Assembly: GCA_900316685.1 (NCBI GenBank)
Contig: ONDS01000002.1
Coordinates: 1 to 64,000 of the forward strand
Source of the DNA: an uncultured Prevotellaceae bacterium
GTDB taxonomy: Bacteria > Bacteroidota > Bacteroidia > Bacteroidales > Bacteroidaceae
Reading direction: 5' to 3'
DNA length: 64,000 bases
Under the pieces are notes generated by a model, which searched no databases, was not told the origin of the DNA, and worked only from the letters and a program-made list of their open reading frames with translations. Made by a program: the position numbers and the translations under genes. Shown here one piece after another: positions 45,334-55,797 of the stretch; positions within the stretch are counted from its first letter, which is position 1; every line of letters starts with the position of its first letter.

Positions 45334-46428
45334 CTAATGTCTCTTCCTCCAGAAGAAATGATATAAGCGGAAGAAAGGTTCCCAGAGGCTCTCGGCGGGG
45401 AAGTGGCGCATCATACGCAGGTCGCGCCACAGCCGTTGGGTGTTGCTGGTCAGTGCGCTGTCGTAGGTGCCACTGAGTGTCCGTTCATCATGCTTGCCGA
45501 AGTTGCCGCCGCTGATGATCTCGTGCAGTAATACCTTGCCGCGCTTCTCATCGGGGGGCAACACGAAGAGCGAGGCATCCAGCCCCAATTGTTCGCCCAA
45601 TACCCACATCAATGCTCCTCCTATCTTGCGCATACCCACATGGCGGAGAATCGTCGTCACGGCTTGCCGTTCGGCATCGCTCTTCTGTGCTCCTTGGCGC
45701 AGAAGGTAATAGTAATCGATGATCTGGCGCAGGCCGATGCCTTCATGCAGCAGATGGTTGTAGATATGAGAGAGCAAGAACACGGTGTTGAACTCCCAGG
45801 TGGGAACAGCCAATGAGCCAGCCTGGCTGCTCAACGCCTCCACATGCTTGAACTGTTCGTCGCTATGCTCGGCGAAGTATCGTTGCAGCCGCCGGTTGTA
45901 CCACGGACAGCTCATCCACGACGGGCGGTAATGCACCTCAATGGGTATCTTTTCGGTCTTGATGAAGTCGATATGGTGGTAGCAGGCCTTGGCCTTGGGC
46001 TTAAGCGTTCGGATGTAGGGTATCACCTTCTCTGCGCCTCCTTCCACCCAGATGTCTATATCGCCGGCTTGGCGGAGCAGTGGGGCGGGGTAGAGCAGGG
46101 CTACACCCTGGCCCTTGAGCAGACAACTGCGGAAGCCCTCGTGCAGGAAATTGTTGTAGGTCCAAACAGCCCGTTCGTCCACCTTCTTACTCTGCCGACT
46201 GATGCGCATGGTGGCTGCCATCCACTCCATGATGTCGTCGTCGGTGGGCTTGTTTTCTTTCAGATGGCCCAGTTGCTGTATCCCTTGCCAGTAAACACCT
46301 ACGATGGCCTGTTTCTTGGCAAACAGCAACAAATCGTGCCAAACGATGTCTTTCACCGTTTGTTCCTCTACGTGCAGCCCATTGAGGCAATGGTTCAGGA
46401 ATAGGAGGTATTTGTCAGTCTCGCTCAT
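45334..46428 (-). CDS. Nucleotidyltransferase-fold protein (NTP_transf_5 type)
   Basis: The 364-residue cytoplasmic protein has the polymerase-beta-like nucleotidyltransferase pattern LLKGQGVALLYPAPLLRQAGDIDIWVEGG, with the paired Asp residues D-I-D. HHIDFIKTEKIPIEVHYRPSW (in parts) supplies the third acidic site. Relatives are found in polysaccharide or lasso-type gene clusters, but substrates are unknown. It lies 10 bp after ugd on the same strand, so a sugar-polymer role is possible (inference). Confidence 0.8.
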   Translation of the reverse strand: MSETDKYLLFLNHCLNGLHVEEQTVKDIVWHDLLLFAKKQAIVGVYWQGIQQLGHLKENKPTDDDIMEWMAATMRISRQSKKVDERAVWTYNNFLHEGFRSCLLKGQGVALLYPAPLLRQAGDIDIWVEGGAEKVIPYIRTLKPKAKACYHHIDFIKTEKIPIEVHYRPSWMSCPWYNRRLQRYFAEHSDEQFKHVEALSSQAGSLAVPTWEFNTVFLLSHIYNHLLHEGIGLRQIIDYYYLLRQGAQKSDAERQAVTTILRHVGMRKIGGALMWVLGEQLGLDASLFVLPPDEKRGKVLLHEIISGGNFGKHDERTLSGTYDSALTSNTQRLWRDLRMMRHFPAESLWEPFFRLYHFFWRKRH

Positions 46429-46438
46429 GACCCTATCA

Positions 46439-47689
46439 TTAGTCGCGGTTGAACAAGTCGCGGGTGTAAACCTTGTCTTTCACATCGTCGAGCACTGCGT
46501 CGTAACGGTTGGCGATGATGGCTTGGCATTGGTTCTTGAACTTCTCAAGGTCGTTCACCACACGGCTCCCGAAGAAGGTGCTGCCGTCTTGCAGCGTCGG
46601 TTCGTAGACGATGACCTCGGCACCCTTGGCCTTGATACGTTTCATCACACCCTGTATGCTGCTCTGGCGGAAATTGTCGCTGTTGGTCTTCATCGTCAGG
46701 CGGTACACGCCAATCACGCAGTGACGTTCCTCGGTGGGACTGAAATCGCCCTTGTTGTAATAGTTGTAATAACCGGCGAGCGACAGCACACGGTCGGCGA
46801 TGAAATCCTTACGGGTGCGGTTGCTCTCCACAATGGCCTCAATCAGGTTCTCTGGCACGTCGGCATAGTTGGCCAGCAGTTGCTTGGTGTCCTTGGGCAG
46901 GCAGTATCCCCCATAGCCGAACGAGGGGTTGTTGTAGTGACTGCCGATGCGGGGGTCGAGACACACGCCGTGGATGATGTCTTCTGTGCTCAGTCCTTTC
47001 ATCTCCGCATAGGTATCCAGCTCGTTGAAGAAGCTAACTCTGAGCGCGAGGTAGGTGTTGGCGAACAGTTTCACTGCCTCTGCCTCGGTAAATCCCATGA
47101 TGAGTGTTTCCACATCCTGTTTGATGGCTCCTTCTTGCAGGAGCGAGGCGAAAAGTCGAGCCTCGTCGGTCAGCCGTTTGTCGCCCAGGTCGGAGCCTAC
47201 GATGATGCGGCTGGGGTAGAGGTTGTCGTATAAGGCGCGGCTCTCGCGAAGGAACTCGGGTGAGAAGAGGATATTCCTCGAACCCGTTTTCTTGCGGATG
47301 CTCTCGGTGTAGCCCACGGGGATGGTCGACTTGATGACCATGATGGCATCGGGGTTGTGGCGCATCACCAAGTCGATGACGGCCTCCACGGCCGTAGTGT
47401 CGAAGAAGTTCCTCTTCGAATCGTAGTTGGTGGGCGCGGCGATAACCACGAAATGGGCATCGCTGTAGGCCTTTGCGGCATCCATGGTGGCCTCCAGCTG
47501 AAGGGGCTTGTTGGCGAGATACTCCTCTATCTCCTTATCCACGATGGGCGACAGCCTATGGTTGATCTTGTCCACCTTTTCCGCCACGATATCCACTGCT
47601 GTCACATGATGGTGTTGTGAGAGTAATGTGGCTATCGACATACCTACATAACCGGTGCCGGCCACGGCAATCTTGATGTCTTTGTTCAT
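46439..47689 (-). CDS. ugd: UDP-glucose 6-dehydrogenase
   Basis: The 416-residue enzyme oxidises UDP-glucose to UDP-glucuronate with two NAD+ for capsule or glycan synthesis. The NAD site is [18 protein letters not shown]. The catalytic Cys is in [15 protein letters not shown], with conserved [21 protein letters not shown] and [17 protein letters not shown]. The start at 47689 (MNKDIKIAV) is chosen because upstream codons cover the promoter (TACTTTTG near 47750 on the minus strand). It is divergent from the large fusion gene. Confidence 0.94.
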
Positions 47690-47815
47690 CTCTTTGTTTT
47701 TTACGGATGGTTCCCATGTCATGGGCGTCCTGTTTCTATTTCGCCACAAAAGTACGAAAAAAAGGCAGAAAAACAAAAGATAAGGGAAAGAATGGCGTTT
47801 TTCAGAAAAAATGCC

Positions 47816-47839: not shown

Positions 47840-50800
47840 ATGAGAGAAAAAGTGGACTGTTTCCTGCCGTTCGTCGATGCGGATGTGTCGTCGCGCATCG
47901 TGGGTGAGCTGGGAGCCGACAAATCAGTACAACATATTTACATGACCGTTCCTGAGAAGGAACACGGCGAGAGAACTCCTATCGAAGGATGCTCCTTCCT
48001 ACCCATCGACCAACCGTTGTCTACAGGTGCCATGCGTAAGATAGCCGAGGTGGCGGTGTCGCCTTTTGTCCTTCTTTGTCTGAAACCCGTGCCTTGGCAT
48101 TTGGGATTGTATGCCTTGCCGCGCATGTTGCGGGCAGCCCTGGATACCGGAGCCGTCATGGTTTATGCCGACCATCTCTCCATTCAGGAGGGACAGACAG
48201 TGCGTCATCCCGTCATCGATTATCAAGAGGGCAGTCTGCGCGACGATTTCGATTTCGGTTCCTTGGTCTTGCTCTCCACACACCATTTGCGTCTGTTCGC
48301 TCAGCAACCGTCGCTGCCCGACTATCAATATGCGGGGTGGTATGCCTTGCGCCTCTTCCTCAGCAGGCAAGGGCTGCTGTTCCATCTCAACGAATTCCTT
48401 TATACCGAGCAGGAATACGACTTGCGAGCCAGCGGCGAGAAACAGTTCGACTATGTCAACCCCCGAAACCGTGAGGTGCAGGTGGAGATGGAGAAGGCCG
48501 TAACGGCCCATCTCGCCGAAGTAGGTGCCTTGGTCGACACATCGCGCTACCGCACCATCAATTTCTCCGAAGAACAGTTCGCTTTCGAGGCTTCGGTGGT
48601 CATACCTGTGTTCAACAGGGCCAAGACCATTTGCGATGCCGTAGACTCCGCCTTGTCGCAGAAAGCCAATTTCAGGTTCAATGTCATCGTCGTCGACAAT
48701 CATTCCACCGACGGCACCACTGAACTGCTGAAAGGTTACGATAATGAGCGGTTGGTGCATATCATTCCCACACGTAACGACCTGGGCATTGGTGGCTGTT
48801 GGAACGTGGCGGTCAATGACGATCGCTGTGGGCGCTTCGCTGTGCAGCTCGACAGCGACGACCTTTATAGCTCTGCCAACACCTTGCAGCAGGTGGTCGA
48901 CGCTTTCCGCAAACAAAATGCCGCCATGGTCATCGGGTCTTACCGAATGTGCGACTTCGACCTCAATACCCTGCCACCGGGATTGATCGACCATCGTGAA
49001 TGGACCGATGACAATGGGTGCAACAATGCACTGCGCATCAACGGACTGGGAGCGCCACGAGCATTCTTCACTCCCTTGGTGCGCCAGATACAGTTTCCCA
49101 ATACCAGCTATGGCGAAGACTATGCTTTGGGATTGGCTTTCAGCCGGCAATACCGTATCGGGCGTATCTACCAGGAGCTGTATCTCTGCCGGCGTTGGGG
49201 CGGCAATAGCGATGCTGCCTTGAGCGTGGAGAAGGTGAATGCCAACAATCTCTATAAGGATCGGTTGCGCACCATGGAACTCAAGGCACGCCAACGGCTG
49301 AATGCCGAGGGCGATACGACCCCCACCGACGACTCGTCGCTGCACCGCTTCCTCAATCGCCAGCTGGAGCGGTGGGAGGAGGCACGGCGCCATTTCCGCG
49401 AGTTGCAGGATGTGAAGACACGCGAACTGCCTCATACCATCGACCTCATAGTGCAATGGAATCCTGCCCGCATGGTATCCACCGGGGCTAAAGTCGACCA
49501 AAAGAGTATCAAGAGCCGTCCATGTTTCCTCTGCGCAGCCAACAGGCCCGAGGTGCAGATGGAGAAGGCGGTCGACGATAAGTTCGATATCCTGGTCAAT
49601 CCGTTCCCCATCCTGCCAGCCCATTTCACCATACCCTCACGCGAACACCAACCGCAACGCATAGCCGACTCCTTCGGAGAGATGTATAAATTGCTGCTGC
49701 TCTATCCGGAACTGATGTTGTTCTACAATGGTCCCGAATCGGGCGCCTCGGCTCCCGACCACTTCCATTTTCAGGGAGGCACGAGTGGCTTGCTGCCTCT
49801 GCAGAGTTCGTGGCAGCGTCTGGCACGAACCCTGCAACCCCTTTTCACTGTCAACGACGAGGGGCTGTTCCTCGTGGAGGATTATCCTGCACCTGCCGTG
49901 CTTGTCAAGGCGAAGAAGCGGGAGAGTGCCGAACAACTGTTCCGTCGGTTGTATCATGCCTTGCAAAAGAGCGAGGAGTGTGCCAGAAACCATCCCGAGC
50001 CCATGATGAACATCGTGGCTTGGCGCGATGCCGACAACTTCCTCTTCGTGGTCTTCCCACGCAGGAAACACCGCCCCGATTGTTATTATGCTCAAGGAGA
50101 TGAACAACGACTGATCAGTCCCGGAGCTCTCGATATGGCGGGCTTGGTCATCACACCCCGTGAGGAGGATTTCATTCGTCTAGATACCCAACAAGTGCTT
50201 GATATATATAAAGAGGTATCGGTCTCCAACCAAGAGATGGCTCAAATCGTGGAATGGTTGAAGGGTGCCCCTAACGACAATACGGCAGCGGTGACGCCAT
50301 ATAAGCGTGAGCCCATGGTCAGTGTGGGAGTGGTCAAGGCACTGAAAATCCATTTCACCCTCAACTCACCGTATATGGCCAAAGGTGAGACGATAGAGGG
50401 CGAACAGTCGGTGGAACTGGTGGAAGGCGGCATAGTATGGCAGGGCAACACCTATCGCGAGTTGGTGTTCTCGCCCAAGCAACCGGATGCCTCGTTCACC
50501 ATCGACCATGTGCGCATAGGCATCGATTTCCATTGGCAGCAGGAGCAACAGCAAACCTTCCCGGGACTCTTGCGTCTCGTGGTCGACGCCGATGCCATCT
50601 GTGCCATCAATGAGTTGCCTGTCGAACAATACCTGGTCAGTGTCATCTCCAGCGAGATGAGTGCCCAAGCCTCTGAGGAATTGCTCAAGGCCCATGCCGT
50701 CATTTCCCGTAGTTGGCTCCTGGCACAGATGGAGAAACGCCAACGGCTCAAAGGCGGCTCCGACAGCTTCTTCTCTTTCGTGAAGAAAGATGATGAGATA

Positions 50801-51616
50801 GTCAGGTGGTACGACCGTGAAGACCATACCATCTTCGATGTGTGTGCCGACGACCACTGCCAGCGCTACCAGGGCATCACCCAGCAGGCGTTGCCAAGGG
50901 CTGCTGCGGCAGTCAAGGCTACTCGTGGCCAGGTGCTCTGGCACGACGGCGATATCTGCGATGCCCGTTTCAGCAAATGCTGCGGGGGAGTGACCGAGGA
51001 GTTCCAATACTGTTGGGAGAACACCGCGAAACCCTATCTCGTTTCGGTCAGGGATTTGCCTAATACGACAGAGAAACTCGATCTCACCGACGAGGCTGAG
51101 GCCGAACGATGGATTAGGTCTACACCGCCGGCATCGTGCCATACCACCGATAAGCTGATTCTGCAACAGGTGCTCAAGGACTACGACCAGGAAACCAAGG
51201 ATTTCTATCGTTGGACGGTGGAGTATACACAGGATGAGCTGGCTGCCCTGGTCAAGACAAAACTGAAGATGGACCTCGGGCGAATCGTCGATTTGCAAGC
51301 CGTGGAGCGTGGACGCAGTGGCCGTATCTGTCGACTGAAGATTGTGGGCTCCCAACGCTCGTTCACCATCGGCAAGGAACTGGAGATACGCCGCACACTC
51401 AGTCCTACCCATCTCTATAGCTCTGCCTTTGTGGTCGACCGTCTCGATGTGCGTGAGGGTGTGCCTGGCCGCTTCCGCCTTCTTGGGGCGGGATGGGGCC
51501 ATGGGGTAGGGCTCTGCCAGATAGGTGCCGCCATGATGGCCGAAGAGGGTATAGCCTACGACCAGATACTCCTCCATTATTATCAACATGCGGAAGTGAA
51601 AAAAGTGTATAAATGA
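47840..51616 (+). CDS. Trimodular fusion: GT2 glycosyltransferase - DUF4922 phosphorylase-like - SpoIID domain
   Basis: A single 1258-residue ORF joins several modules. Residues 1-240 look like a degenerate GT-A fold ([27 protein letters not shown]). Residues 255-520 are a full GT2 domain ([48 protein letters not shown]). Residues 530-830 match DUF4922, a HIT/GalT-like fold with CFLC and the active-site DHFHFQ near 640. From about 860 is a SpoIID/LytB domain ([52 protein letters not shown]). No signal peptide is present, which is odd for SpoIID. Two AmpG-like permeases follow. Likely sugar-phosphate handling linked to cell-wall turnover (inference). Confidence 0.9.
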
Positions 51617-51662: not shown

Positions 51663-52937
51663 ATGAAACAACGTAATCCGTGGGCCTGGATTCCCACACT
51701 CTATTTCGCTGAAGGACTGCCCAATGTGGTGGTGATGACCGTGGCCGTGGTGATGTACATGCAAATGGGCATGAGCGACACCGAGATAGCCCTTTATACG
51801 GGTTGGCTGGGTCTGCCTTGGGTTATCAAACCCCTGTGGAGTCCTTTCGTTGATTTGTTCAAGACCAAGAGATGGTGGGTGCTGGCCATGCAGCTGCTCC
51901 TGGGCTCAGCCTTTGCGGGTGTGGCCTTCACGCTGAATACCGACTTCTGGTTCCAGGGCACCATGTTCTTCTTCTTCCTCATGGCTTTCTCAAGTGCCAC
52001 TCACGACATAGCAGCCGATGGGTTTTATATGCTTGAGCTGGATAGCCACGGACAGTCTTGGTTCGTGGGCATCAGGAATACGTTCTACCGCATAGCGGTC
52101 ATCTTCGGACAGGGCTTGCTCGTGCCTGCCGCCGGTTTGTTGCAGAAGGCTTTCCCTGGGCGCAATGCCTATACTTGGAGCCTCATCTTCTTTGGCCTGG
52201 CGGGCATCTTCATCGCCATCTGGCTTTACCACCGTTTCATCATGCCTCGACCTGTAGACCGCGACAATGAGGGGCTGACCGCCGGTCAGGTGATGCACGG
52301 ACTCAAGGAGATGCTGCTCTCGTTCTTCACCAAGGTGCCTGTCAAACAAATCATCTTCGTGCTGCTATTCTTGCTGCTGTATCGCTTCCCGGAGGCCATG
52401 CTGACCAAGATGGCGAGCACCTTCCTGCTCCGACCGCATGAGGAGGGGGGGCTGGGACTTTCGCCCGAGGCTTACGGCCTGGCCTACGGCACCGTAGGTT
52501 TGGTAGGTCTGCTTCTCGGTGGCATAGTCGGGGGTATGTTGGCCAGCCGCGATGGACTGAAGCGTTGGCTCTGGCCTTTCGTCTGCGCCATCACCTTGCC
52601 CGATATCGTCTATGTGTATATGAGTTATGCGCTACCTTCCAACCTCTGGCTCATCAGCACTTGTCTGTTTATTGAGCAGTTTGGCTACGGACTGGGGTTC
52701 ACAGCACTCACGCTTTATATGCTCTACTATAGCCAGGGTGAGTTCAAGACCTCGCATTATGCCATCTGTACGGGTCTTACCTATCTTGGCCTGATGTTGC
52801 CTGGCATGATGTCGGGTTGGCTCAAGGACATGGTGGGCTATCAGGAGTTTTTCGTCATCGTGATGTTCCTCTGCATCATCACCTTCGTCGTTACCGCCTT
52901 CATCAAAATCGACCCCGAATTTGGAAAAAAGAAGTGA
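51663..52937 (+). CDS. AmpG-like MFS permease (first copy)
   Basis: The 424-residue protein has twelve predicted membrane helices and the AmpG/PUCC-like opening RNPWAWIPTLYFAEGLPNVVVMTVAVVMY (in parts), then LPWVIKPLWSPFVDLFKTKRWW. AmpG permeases import GlcNAc-anhydroMurNAc muropeptides for recycling. Position directly after the SpoIID-containing fusion supports a cell-wall fragment substrate, but that is inference. The TGA stop is the first codon-length of a heptamer array (52935-52962). Confidence 0.85.
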   Translation: MKQRNPWAWIPTLYFAEGLPNVVVMTVAVVMYMQMGMSDTEIALYTGWLGLPWVIKPLWSPFVDLFKTKRWWVLAMQLLLGSAFAGVAFTLNTDFWFQGTMFFFFLMAFSSATHDIAADGFYMLELDSHGQSWFVGIRNTFYRIAVIFGQGLLVPAAGLLQKAFPGRNAYTWSLIFFGLAGIFIAIWLYHRFIMPRPVDRDNEGLTAGQVMHGLKEMLLSFFTKVPVKQIIFVLLFLLLYRFPEAMLTKMASTFLLRPHEEGGLGLSPEAYGLAYGTVGLVGLLLGGIVGGMLASRDGLKRWLWPFVCAITLPDIVYVYMSYALPSNLWLISTCLFIEQFGYGLGFTALTLYMLYYSQGEFKTSHYAICTGLTYLGLMLPGMMSGWLKDMVGYQEFFVIVMFLCIITFVVTAFIKIDPEFGKKK

Positions 52938-53105: not shown

Positions 53106-54422
53106 ATGAACTATTCCCAACAGACACAGCGCTTCGAAGGGTGGCTCAAGGGCCATCCCTGGGCTTGGATTCCCACTGCTTTCCTGGCCAAGGGGGTCTG
53201 CCTGGTGTCGTTGACCATCATCTCCGTCCTGGCTTTCCATCGGCTGGGAATGGACAATGCGGGGGTATGTCTACATGTGGCGCTGCTCTACCTGCCGTGG
53301 CTCTTCCGCCCGCTGGCCAGTCCCCTGGTCCTGCGCGTCATGTCGCTCCGCCGGTGGATTGTATTGTGTGAGCTGTTGCTGGCTCTCTCGCTCATCGGCG
53401 TGGCTCTGTGCGTGTCGGTCAACGGCAAGCATGTGGGCGTAACGCTATGGCTCTTGTTTTTTTCCTTGGTAGGGGTGGTCCACGACCTGGCGGTCGACAT
53501 TTATTTCCGGATGAATGCCCCGCTGCCCATCCGACGCTCTTTCGGGGGCATCACCTCGGTGTTCTTCAGATTGGCGCTGCTCTTCGGACAGGGGGTGCTG
53601 CTCATCATCGTGGGCAACATGGAGACGTTCACACGCGATGTGTCGGGGGCATGGCGCTTCCTCTTCCATGCCATGGCGGTGTTCTTCATGCTCCTGGCTG
53701 TGCTCAACCTGCTCCTGCTGCCCAAACCGGTGGCCATAGATGGGCAGGCGAAGGCCCAGCGGTCTTATAGGCGGGGATGGTCGGCACCCGTCAAGGCTTT
53801 CTTCTCGCAGAAGGGCATCCTCTCCATCCTGCTGTTCCTCGTCTTCTTCATGTTGCCCGAGGCGTTGCTGGAGAAGGTGGGTATGCTCTTCCTGGTCGAT
53901 GCGGCGCATACGGGGGGCTTGGCGCTCTCGCCACAGGAGTTCGGCCTGGTGCAGGGAACGATAGGTGTCTTCGCTCTCTCCATAGGGGGCATACTGGGGG
54001 GCATGGCGGTACACAAGCATGGGGTGGGGCGCTGGCTCTGGCCTATGGCGCTGGCTTTCACGCTCTCCAATGTCGTCTATCTCTTCCTCTCGGCCTACAT
54101 GCCTTCCAACATCTGGGTGCATTCCGCCTGTCTGGCTGTCAAGTTCCTGGGCTTGGGCTTCGGTTCCACGGCCTATGCGGTATGTGCCATCGCTTTCTCG
54201 CGCGACAGGAGTGGTGAGTTGCATCCCGATTGCTTCGCCGTCTGTTCCTCCGTCACCTATTTCCTCATCCTCATAGCCACGGCTCTTTCGGGCTATCTGC
54301 AGGAGTGGTTGGGCTACTACCGCTTCTTCTGGGCAGTGCTGGCCTGCTCGCTCTTCACGTGGATAGCCGTGTTCTTCGTCAAGGTGGATGAGACGACAGG
54401 GAAGAAAGACGTTGGACATTGA
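53106..54422 (+). CDS. AmpG-like MFS permease (second, diverged copy)
   Basis: The 438-residue paralogue of the preceding gene shares the opening HPWAWIPTAFLAKGVCLVSL, LPWLFRPLASPLVLR and the second-half layout PEALLEKVGMLFLVDAAHTGGLALSPQEFGLVQGTIGV (in parts), aligned with PEAMLTKMASTFLL and LGLSPEAYGLAYGTVGLVGLLLGG in copy one. Charged residues in the first helices differ between copies (FAEGLPN against FLAKGVC), so the substrates may differ or the two may form a pair. It is higher in GC than its neighbours. A short low-complexity spacer separates the two genes. Confidence 0.84.
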   Translation: MNYSQQTQRFEGWLKGHPWAWIPTAFLAKGVCLVSLTIISVLAFHRLGMDNAGVCLHVALLYLPWLFRPLASPLVLRVMSLRRWIVLCELLLALSLIGVALCVSVNGKHVGVTLWLLFFSLVGVVHDLAVDIYFRMNAPLPIRRSFGGITSVFFRLALLFGQGVLLIIVGNMETFTRDVSGAWRFLFHAMAVFFMLLAVLNLLLLPKPVAIDGQAKAQRSYRRGWSAPVKAFFSQKGILSILLFLVFFMLPEALLEKVGMLFLVDAAHTGGLALSPQEFGLVQGTIGVFALSIGGILGGMAVHKHGVGRWLWPMALAFTLSNVVYLFLSAYMPSNIWVHSACLAVKFLGLGFGSTAYAVCAIAFSRDRSGELHPDCFAVCSSVTYFLILIATALSGYLQEWLGYYRFFWAVLACSLFTWIAVFFVKVDETTGKKDVGH

Positions 54423-54465: not shown

Positions 54466-54501
54466 CGTTAGGTCTCTCTTTTGTATAGAACCCAATGTAA
54501 A

Positions 54502-55038
54502 ATGGAAGACAAACGGATTGTCCAAGAGATATTGAACGGGGGAAGCACCCGCTTGTTCGCTCCCGTGGTACAGCGCTATTCGGGCATGATGCTCTCAAAG
54601 GCGTTGACCATCACGCATAACCGCGACCGTGCTGCCGAGGCGGTACAGATGGCCTTTGCCAAGGCGTATGCCAGTCTGGATGCGTGGCGCGGTGACAGTC
54701 TCGGGCCGTGGCTGGTCACCATCACGCTTCATACGGCTTTGCACCTGATGGAGAAGGAAAGGAGACATTCTCATTTCTCTTCTGATGGCACCCAACTGGA
54801 GAATGTGGCTGACGAGACTTACTCTGAAGAGCGGGAACGGCTGTTGTCGAACATGGAACGGGCCATCGCCTCCTTACCCTCCGGCGACAGACAACTCCTC
54901 ACATTGCATTATTATCAGAAAAAGAAAACCGACGAGATAGCGAAACTGTTGGGCATGAGCCAAACCAATGTGTTGGTGCGCCTGCATCGTGTTCGCGAAC
55001 GTCTCAGAAAAATCATGGACCATGGAGAAAATGAATGA
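54502..55038 (+). CDS. ECF-type RNA polymerase sigma factor
   Basis: The 178-residue protein has sigma region 2 (RLFAPVVQRYSGMMLSKALTIT, NRDRAAEAVQMAFAKAYASLDAWRGD) and region 4 (AIASLPSGDRQLLTLHYYQKKKTDEIAKLLGMSQTNVLVRLHRVRERLRKIM in parts). It is expected to direct RNA polymerase to a small regulon, probably in response to an envelope signal. The last 17 bases overlap the next gene, and a DUF6249 membrane protein follows, an arrangement often seen in Bacteroidetes. The longer ORF from 54481 adds seven residues right after the -7 box. Confidence 0.92.
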   Translation: MEDKRIVQEILNGGSTRLFAPVVQRYSGMMLSKALTITHNRDRAAEAVQMAFAKAYASLDAWRGDSLGPWLVTITLHTALHLMEKERRHSHFSSDGTQLENVADETYSEERERLLSNMERAIASLPSGDRQLLTLHYYQKKKTDEIAKLLGMSQTNVLVRLHRVRERLRKIMDHGENE

Positions 55039-55345
55039 CCAAGAATTGGATGCGCTCATCATGGAATCGTTGGAGCGCCAGGAAATAGTCGAGCAACTCA
55101 ACGTAGCGGTGATGAAGGATCTTCAACGCAAGGCTCGCCGCGAACTGTGGCATAAGTGGGGTAGGCTGGTGGTCATCGCCTTTGCCGTTCCCTTGCTTGT
55201 CGCCTTCTTCGTCTTCTCTGTCGTGCAGGGATGGTATGCCGGTCATGGCACGGTGTGCGAGGTGGCATGTTTGGCTATTCAGGTGATATGCACCTTTCTC
55301 GGCTTCTGTGCCTTTCTCGAAAAATTTAATCCTTCTACGCTGTAA
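55022..55345 (+). CDS. Small membrane protein, possible anti-sigma partner
   Basis: The 107-residue protein has an acidic/helical cytoplasmic N-terminus (NDQELDALIMESLERQEIVEQLN), a basic stretch, and two membrane helices (LVVIAFAVPLLVAFFVFSVV, CLAIQVICTFLGFCAFL). Overlap with the sigma gene (start 17 bp before its end) points to coupled translation and a regulatory role such as anti-sigma, but no classical anti-sigma motif is visible. An internal ATG at 55031 is an alternative start. Confidence 0.78.
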   Translation: MEKMNDQELDALIMESLERQEIVEQLNVAVMKDLQRKARRELWHKWGRLVVIAFAVPLLVAFFVFSVVQGWYAGHGTVCEVACLAIQVICTFLGFCAFLEKFNPSTL

Positions 55346-55401
55346 TATTTGGCAACAAGGGTACTCTTATAAGTGAAGTTTAATCAAAAACAATTATAAC
55401 A

Positions 55402-55797
55402 ATGGAAGAACTTGGAGTTTTAGTGCCTATTTTAGGTGTCATCTTCTCACTGTCCATCCCCATGGTCGTCATCTATTTTGTGGCCAAGATGGTGATTAAC
55501 GCGAAGAACCGCGACAAGGAGATCCGTCAACTGATAATCGAGCATGATATGGATGCTGAGCGGGCCAAATTGTTGATTAAGGAGGTGCGTAATGACAATC
55601 ATTATCCAGCTCTACGATGGGGCTGCTTGCTCATGGGGGCAGGACTGGGTGCCTTGGCGGCTTTCCTGCTCGACATGTCCACAGAAAGTGTTTATTTCTA
55701 TCTGATTATCGCTTTTGGTTGCGGTCTGGGTCTGCTCATCTCTTTCCTCGTTGAGGTCAACCTCATGAAAAGAATGCCGAAAGAAGAGGAGGAATAG
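55402..55797 (+). CDS. DUF6249 membrane protein
   Basis: The 131-residue protein has an N-terminal helix (VLVPILGVIFSLSIPMVVIYFVAKM), a charged cytoplasmic segment (INAKNRDKEIRQLIIEHDMDAERAKLLIKEV in parts) and two further helices (GCLLMGAGLGALAAFLLDM, YFYLIIAFGCGLGLLISFLVE). DUF6249 proteins commonly sit next to ECF sigma factors in Bacteroidetes; their function is unknown. It is probably in the sigma operon, 56 bp after the small membrane protein, and ends with a terminator. Confidence 0.82.
   Translation: MEELGVLVPILGVIFSLSIPMVVIYFVAKMVINAKNRDKEIRQLIIEHDMDAERAKLLIKEVRNDNHYPALRWGCLLMGAGLGALAAFLLDMSTESVYFYLIIAFGCGLGLLISFLVEVNLMKRMPKEEEE

Follow-up and report, generated by a model that had tools for sequence, protein, structure and literature searches.

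The window analysed here, a stretch of 64,000 nucleotides from an uncultured Prevotellaceae bacterium, a rumen-type Prevotella (GenBank assembly GCA_900316685.1, contig ONDS01000002.1), carried a single gene that encoded a family 2 glycosyltransferase (GT2), a DUF4922 domain and a SpoIID/LytB domain in one protein of 1258 residues, followed by two AmpG-like permeases. Across the phylum these three modules were near-obligate partners that formed a functional unit around DUF4922. The fusion was one form of this three-gene unit, and every contiguous partial fusion as well as the full split was also found. It was likely that the unit served peptidoglycan salvage. Tentatively, we read the fusion as a soluble, cytosolic unit for imported N-acetylglucosaminyl-1,6-anhydro-N-acetylmuramic acid (GlcNAc-anhMurNAc) that is independent of AnmK, with SpoIID perhaps opening the anhydro ring. 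Taken separately, a bypass of AnmK by this unit came close to an even chance, and the opening of the 1,6-anhydro ring by SpoIID was a doubtful step. Similarly doubtful in its full form was a new AnmK-independent route in which a cytosolic SpoIID, GT2 and a GalT-like phosphorylase reopen the ring and leave MurNAc intact for the synthesis of uridine diphosphate (UDP)-MurNAc.

In such a route, AmpG would import GlcNAc-anhMurNAc and GlcNAc-MurNAc, by analogy with Tannerella forsythia, and the fused unit would process these sugars with no need for AnmK. SpoIID, which has the lytic transglycosylase fold with a catalytic Glu, would run its usual chemistry in reverse in the cytosol. Namely, the 1,6-anhydro ring of anhMurNAc, with or without the attached GlcNAc, would be opened either hydrolytically or through transfer onto an acceptor sugar, and MurNAc would stay intact. 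Two routes would then be open to it, one through AmgK and MurU that yields UDP-MurNAc and one through a kinase of the MurK type and then MurQ. The GT2 and GalT-like modules would perhaps make or recycle the acceptor or partner sugar via a nucleoside diphosphate (NDP)-sugar. The pathway was well supported; its chemistry and what GT2 and DUF4922 contribute were inferred, as was the handling of imported anhMurNAc by the unit.

The phylum sample comprised 296 genomes, in which strong matches were counted at E<1e-20 for DUF4922 and for the N-terminal part of the glycosyltransferase (GT) and at E<1e-100 for SpoIID. These cuts left out weak matches to DUF4922 (G027, G136 and G160) and to the GT (G209 and G284), together with 38 genomes that had distant SpoIIDs only. 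DUF4922 was present in 41 genomes, and 40 genomes each had the GT part and this SpoIID subfamily. All three modules, unlinked cases included, occurred together in 39 of the 296 genomes and none of them occurred in 255. The exceptions among the 41 DUF4922 genomes were G156, with no GT match, and G223, with no SpoIID of this subfamily. In this sample, the modules were absent from every 'same class' genome outside the window's own family.

The unit was also accompanied by AmpG. At a cut of E<1e-50, which dropped G172 and G196, an AmpG homologue was found in 41 of the 41 DUF4922 genomes compared with 31 of the 199 others examined (all 65 without AnmK and 134 of the 190 with AnmK). As close loci we took the best 80 of the 569 confirmed stretches in named records, and an AmpG-like gene was located directly downstream in 75 of them. 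The split loci L144, L178 and L179 began with NamZ, a sodium-solute symporter, a Golvesin-domain protein, a phosphoesterase, GT, DUF4922, SpoIID and AmpG and continued with NamZ, a flavin adenine dinucleotide (FAD) oxidase and a NagX/MurT-like gene, to which L144 and L179 added a BadF-type kinase; one representative per cluster was scanned for these neighbour identities. At L166 to L171 a BadF-type kinase and/or a glycoside hydrolase family 3 (GH3)/beta-lactamase protein resembling NagZ was present beside the unit. Genes for NamZ, NagX/MurT-like proteins, BadF-type kinases and GH3/beta-lactamase proteins recurred near the unit in several families. At L207, L224, L226 and L227 an Amidase_3 protein that looked exported and bore a tail for type IX sorting was encoded near GT or SpoIID, as judged from the one member scanned.

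The location of the proteins was consistent with such a pathway. No signal, as had been noted at first sight, and no membrane segment was seen in the fusion, whose highest 19-residue hydropathy was 1.46. This hydropathy served as our proxy for export with a rough cut of 2.0, which was reached by three of four exported-looking proteins of the window used as a control, the fourth scoring 1.84. Among the stand-alone SpoIIDs first examined, 0 of 22 reached 2.0 in the first 45 residues. In a set of 80 stand-alone rows, which included some genes twice and some partial genes, 58 had at most 20 residues ahead of the first strand, and one (L193) had an upstream stretch that scored 2.07. By comparison, 16 distant SpoIIDs of this phylum were examined, and 14 reached 2.0 in the first 45 residues; five of the 16 came from genomes that also had the cytosolic form (G224, G066, G097, G263 and G132), and all five reached it. 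An exported fusion was therefore ruled out, since the stand-alone SpoIIDs of the subfamily lacked a signal as well, and judging by its sequence the SpoIID module looked cytosolic also as a separate protein. With AmpG in every DUF4922 genome and the recurrent salvage genes, this bore out the proposal of an earlier, sequence-only reading of this DNA that the protein belongs to a cytosolic pathway for imported muropeptides or anhydro-sugars; its anatomy of the locus and overall direction were right, and its phosphorolysis or activation of these sugars and their transfer to a glycosyl acceptor are predictions.

That reading had also described a single uninterrupted open reading frame (ORF), and indeed the frame ran from ATG to stop with zero internal stops and contained all three domains above their Pfam cut-offs. 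Roughly, residues 1-495 formed the GT2 part, 496-815 DUF4922 with its C-terminal half, and 816-1258 SpoIID. Glycos_transf_2 (PF00535) matched residues 252-381 with 72.2 bits (cut-off 23.3), DUF4922 scored 207.5 bits (cut-off 23.6), and SpoIID (PF08486) matched residues 919-1034 with 84 bits (cut-off 23). In NCBIfam, SpoIID_LytB (TIGR02669) matched residues 922-1254 with 168.5 bits (cut-off 83.3). Behind DUF4922, ATP_transf gave a match at E 0.25, below the Pfam cut-off. No kinase domain was found in the protein by the Pfam scan.

Predicted structures recovered the SpoIID and Apa2-like folds, and the match to the GT-A fold was weak. AlphaFold models were built from 56 sequences, and their pLDDT was 88.9 (residues 1-815) and 82.7 (residues 816-1258). 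In Foldseek searches, the SpoIID module matched SpoIID of Clostridioides difficile (5i1t) with E 9.9e-14 and a TM-score of 0.74 by target. The DUF4922 region matched the yeast Ap4A phosphorylase Apa2 (4i5t/4i5w) with TM-scores of 0.55-0.61 by target, and a weak sequence match to Apa2 was located near HxHxQ. By family score, motif and fold, the region belongs with the Ap4A/GDP-sugar phosphorylase branch of the GalT/HIT superfamily. Residues 1-815 aligned over 529-554 columns to K4 chondroitin polymerase, an enzyme with two GT-A domains, at a TM-score of only 0.33-0.35 by target. In the model, strands and helices alternated in about residues 1-245, where no DxD was seen. The extra GT-A-like segment claimed at first sight was suggested by this alternation and by the weak fold match, and it was probably a second GT-A-like domain.

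The catalytic residues were kept in all three modules, and by sequence all three active sites were intact. The conservation rows (185 for GT, 192 for DUF4922 and 172 for SpoIID, of which 56, 64 and 40 came from outside the family) included some genes twice because of overlapping loci and some partial genes. In GT2, D338 and D340 (DxD) were present in 184 of 184 rows and E426 and D427 (general-base acid) in 185 of 185. The predicted H-x-H-x-Q pattern of DUF4922 occurred as H-F-H-F-Q from H641 to Q645, with both histidines in 192 of 192 rows and Q645 in 189; C562 was invariant where aligned and C565 was kept in 190 of 191 rows. The conserved Glu claimed for SpoIID was E939, invariant in 171 of 171 rows, which paired with the catalytic E101 of C. 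difficile SpoIID. H996, C1002, H1006 and C1007 were kept in 172 of 172 rows and corresponded by eye to H134, C140, H145 and C146, the zinc ligands of C. difficile SpoIID (PMC6221140), a pairing that the HMMER alignment did not make. An inactive relic of SpoIID or DUF4922 was ruled out by this invariance.

We also found the unit in many states of fusion. The closest named loci were from uncultured Prevotellaceae, with up to 80% identity in the SpoIID module, and the triple fusion, in some cases cut, was present in 76 of the best 80 loci; L125 and L135 were near contig ends. Among 61 genomes drawn from the window's own family, the triple fusion occurred in 11 (truncated at a contig end in G306), 21 had a GT-DUF4922 fusion and a separate SpoIID, and four had a GT beside a DUF4922-SpoIID fusion, while all three genes were separate in 14. 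Single genomes had a GT-DUF4922 fusion with no SpoIID match (G335), a GT-DUF4922 fusion with a separate GT and SpoIID (G230), or GT and SpoIID with no DUF4922 (G333); the remaining eight, several of them incomplete, had none of the three. GT2-DUF4922 was the commonest fused pair (34 of 61). On a GT tree of 72 rows, the GT-DUF4922 link changed at least eight times and the DUF4922-SpoIID link at least six times; the tree was a quick one with open forks, and the direction of change was not readable. A survey of fused and split forms and of their permeases had been suggested at the outset; every contiguous fusion and the full split were found, and AmpG was present in all 41 DUF4922 genomes of the phylum sample. 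At L176 (G047:C140) a second GT and DUF4922 copy appeared broken, with a stop in the GT match and DUF4922 in two pieces; the same genome held another GT/DUF4922 pair on C67.

The link to AnmK came from gene absence. AnmK was present in 17 of the 41 DUF4922 genomes (one match, in G216, was weak at E 1.2e-10) compared with 190 of the 255 others. None of the 65 others without AnmK had AmpG; 64 of them belonged to one family, f17, and the last was G004. Among AmpG-bearing genomes, AnmK was absent from 24 of 41 with DUF4922 and from 0 of 31 without it (Fisher p 2e-8; the Fisher tests on co-occurrence here ignored kinship). In this sample, AmpG occurred without AnmK only where DUF4922 was present. 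G223, the only genome in which GT, DUF4922 and AmpG came without a SpoIID of this subfamily, kept AnmK, and its locus L161 had the order NamZ-AmpG-GT-DUF4922.

MurQ (TIGR00274) was sought in 80 genomes, made up of the 41 with DUF4922, 24 of the 31 others that had AmpG, and a further 15. It was also absent in 9 of the 24 AnmK-lacking DUF4922 genomes compared with 0 of the 24 AmpG-bearing others (p 0.02). In six of these nine (G009, G019, G031, G124, G188 and G294) AmgK-like and MurU-like genes were located side by side, with one small ORF between them in G031. For the MurU-like proteins scanned, MurU models were the best NCBIfam match, and for the AmgK-like proteins scanned the AmgK model was best or second to RapZ, in each case below the cut-offs; four pairs were profile-scanned wholly or in part, and the G188 and G031 pairs and the G294 MurU were judged from sequence only. 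The window genome encoded an AmgK-like protein (63 bits) and, apart from it, a protein that shared 44% identity with the MurU-like one of G124. At L251, L252, L255, L262 and L264 the AmgK-like kinases carried a C-terminal RapZ domain.

The nearest published system was the ampG operon of T. forsythia (Tanf_08345-08385), a single transcript of xanthan lyase, gtf, gtf, lytB, ampG, ybbC, murT, murK and murQ, where the accessible part of the report assigned no role to the genes gtf, gtf and lytB (PMC5388701). The order gtf-gtf-lytB-ampG fits the split loci L144, L178 and L179. However, the genes are separate there and form one protein in the window, and we likened them by gene order. By this analogy, gtf-gtf-lytB-ampG may be the split form, the second gtf being the DUF4922 gene. 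The sequence-only reading had called the combined reaction unfamiliar; the combination is not wholly new, as this co-transcribed gene order was already in print. AmpG of T. forsythia has been shown to import GlcNAc-anhMurNAc and GlcNAc-MurNAc (PMC5388701, PMC7670621), and the bacterium uses GlcNAc-anhMurNAc without a predicted AnmK by a route that its authors left open (PMC7670621). Our modules offer candidate genes for this question and may be a missing step for the wall sugar, which would make the finding a variant of peptidoglycan recycling. If the proposal is true, wall sugar is recycled in many Bacteroidota along a non-textbook route that includes a cytosolic SpoIID enzyme, and a lytic transglycosylase fold there runs backwards within the cell. 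Even with other chemistry, the co-occurrence in 39 of 41 genomes defines a unit around DUF4922, a domain otherwise named only for plants in the literature searched.

Other known systems shared single features with the unit. The AnmK-MurQ route and the known recycling route AnmK-MupP-AmgK-MurU have the same presumed substrate, imported GlcNAc-anhMurNAc, but AnmK was missing from the 24 genomes above and the fusion had no kinase domain. DUF4922 resembled yeast Apa2 in fold and in the sequence around HxHxQ, and it is mentioned in the literature on plant GDP-L-galactose phosphorylase. Both are free enzymes, whereas DUF4922 here goes with GT2 and nearly always with SpoIID. The SpoIIDs of Bacillus subtilis, C. 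difficile and Chlamydiales share the fold and the catalytic Glu, and the putative metal-ligand pattern, matched by eye, resembles that of C. difficile. These SpoIIDs carry signal sequences and their site of action is the wall (PMC6635528), whereas the subfamily of the window has no signal and is tied to AmpG. On naked glycans a Chlamydiales SpoIID gives mainly non-anhydro products (PMC6635528), and the use of water by this fold is therefore probable.

Several observations weighed against an AnmK-independent ring-opening unit. The 17 genomes that keep AnmK showed that the unit was no simple replacement, and strict replacement was ruled out as a rule. The DUF4922 tree implied at least ten AnmK changes among related genomes; it was a quick tree with long branches and open forks that covered 39 of the 41 genomes, G097 and G116 being left out. 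The AnmK comparison was conceived after the data had been seen, and the MurQ comparison in the course of the analysis. MurQ was also absent in 3 of 15 genomes with neither AmpG nor DUF4922 (G010, G063 and G271). The search for AmgK-like genes (PF01636) covered 14 genomes with no control genomes, and 12 of its 23 loci were read, G116 and G140 falling outside those. With the window genome 89.8% complete, its apparent lack of AnmK and MurQ was not firm. In T. forsythia, growth on free anhMurNAc was weak or restricted and extracts made far more GlcNAc-MurNAc than GlcNAc-anhMurNAc (PMC7670621), so this species may not depend on the anhydro sugar. The accessible portions of the literature on SpoIID and recycling contained no report of ring opening by any SpoIID. 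At L107 and L112 this SpoIID adjoined AmpG, and roughly 10 kb of upstream sequence contained neither GT nor DUF4922. Neighbouring genes were often unrelated in families f16 and f34, and split forms in unrelated contexts, which the sequence-only reading would have counted against itself, were thus found in part; these genomes still had the modules and AmpG. Finally, the reading leaves the presence of GT2 and DUF4922 unexplained.

We considered nucleotide-coupled phosphorolysis unlikely. Here GT2 would act in reverse on the imported disaccharide to give an NDP-sugar, DUF4922 with phosphate would release sugar-1-phosphate and NDP, and SpoIID would first trim longer chains. The Apa2 fold with its HxHxQ and CxxC, the frequency of the GT2-DUF4922 pair and its occurrence without SpoIID in G223 all agreed with this scheme, which was close to the idea of the earlier reader. 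However, its donor and product are predicted, and by itself it gives no account of the AnmK pattern.

A second scheme, also unlikely, lets SpoIID work in the normal direction as a cytosolic lytic transglycosylase that cuts imported oligosaccharides into anhMurNAc-ended disaccharides, with GT2 and DUF4922 either processing a side sugar or correcting wrong NDP-sugars. The Glu shared with C. difficile SpoIID, the four metal-ligand residues matched by eye and the similarity to 5i1t fit an enzyme of this kind. However, AmpG is known for disaccharides (PMC7670621), which have no MurNAc-GlcNAc bond to cut. Moreover, extra anhMurNAc would raise the demand for AnmK, which 24 of the 41 genomes lacked.

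Less probable again was a glycan-building unit (for storage, capsule or a glycoconjugate) that shares an old operon with ampG by chance. The GT2 module resembles K4 chondroitin polymerase, and a GT4-type glycosyltransferase gene was often located 3' of the cytosolic SpoIID gene in f16, f34 and f45 (L145, L151, L162-L164, L203, L208 and others), making it a possible fourth partner. Such a unit would hardly explain AmpG in all 41 genomes even where unlinked, the salvage genes nearby or the fusion's lack of a visible membrane segment. The glycogen-type neighbours of SpoIID suspected in f16 were rejected: the protein of about 700 residues was BatA-like and that of about 420 residues was a GTP-binding GTPase.

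A local accident without functional meaning was highly improbable: split forms were common, with all three genes apart in 14 of 61 family genomes, but the repeated link changes on the GT tree, the intact active sites and the near-perfect co-occurrence spoke against it, and the 80% SpoIID identity, the 76 fused loci of 80 and the invariant or nearly invariant catalytic residues indicated that the fusion was not due to chance.

Positions of the fused protein, its modules and the permeases in the window
Feature	Position	Strand	Evidence
Fused GT2/DUF4922/SpoIID protein, 1258 residues	47840..51616	+	ORF, Pfam, NCBIfam
N-terminal segment, residues 1-245, probably GT-A-like, family-specific	47840..48574	+	weak fold match
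Catalytic GT2 domain, residues about 252-495	48593..49324	+	Pfam, conserved residues
DUF4922 domain, residues 504-647, C562xxC565 and H641xH643xQ645	49349..49780	+	Pfam, residues
Phosphorylase-like module, C-terminal half, residues 693-795	49916..50224	+	ATP_transf below cut-off, Apa2 fold
SpoIID/LytB module, residues 816-1258	50285..51613	+	Pfam, NCBIfam, fold
E939, SpoIID catalytic Glu position	50654..50656	+	alignment with C. difficile E101
H996, C1002, H1006, C1007 (zinc-ligand-like)	50825..50860	+	matched by eye (spacing)
AmpG-like permease 1 of the major facilitator superfamily	51663..52937	+	TIGR00901, homologue searches
AmpG-like permease 2, paralogue of permease 1	53106..54422	+	TIGR00901

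The two downstream permeases, putative muropeptide importers, were on the same strand as the fusion; 46 bases separated the first from the fusion and 168 bases the second from the first. TIGR00901 was the best NCBIfam match for both, with 156.9 and 100.4 bits, under its cut-off of 350.

The second permease was followed (54481-55797, plus strand) by an extracytoplasmic function (ECF) sigma factor gene, a small ORF and a gene for a DUF6249 protein, and close relatives had a similar order. Upstream, on the minus strand, were an uncharacterised nucleotidyltransferase (NTP_transf_5; 45334-46428) and a UDP-glucose-type dehydrogenase (46439-47776) divergent from the fusion. The dehydrogenase was labelled next to the fusion only in the three closest of the best 80 loci (L063-L065) and was probably unrelated to it.

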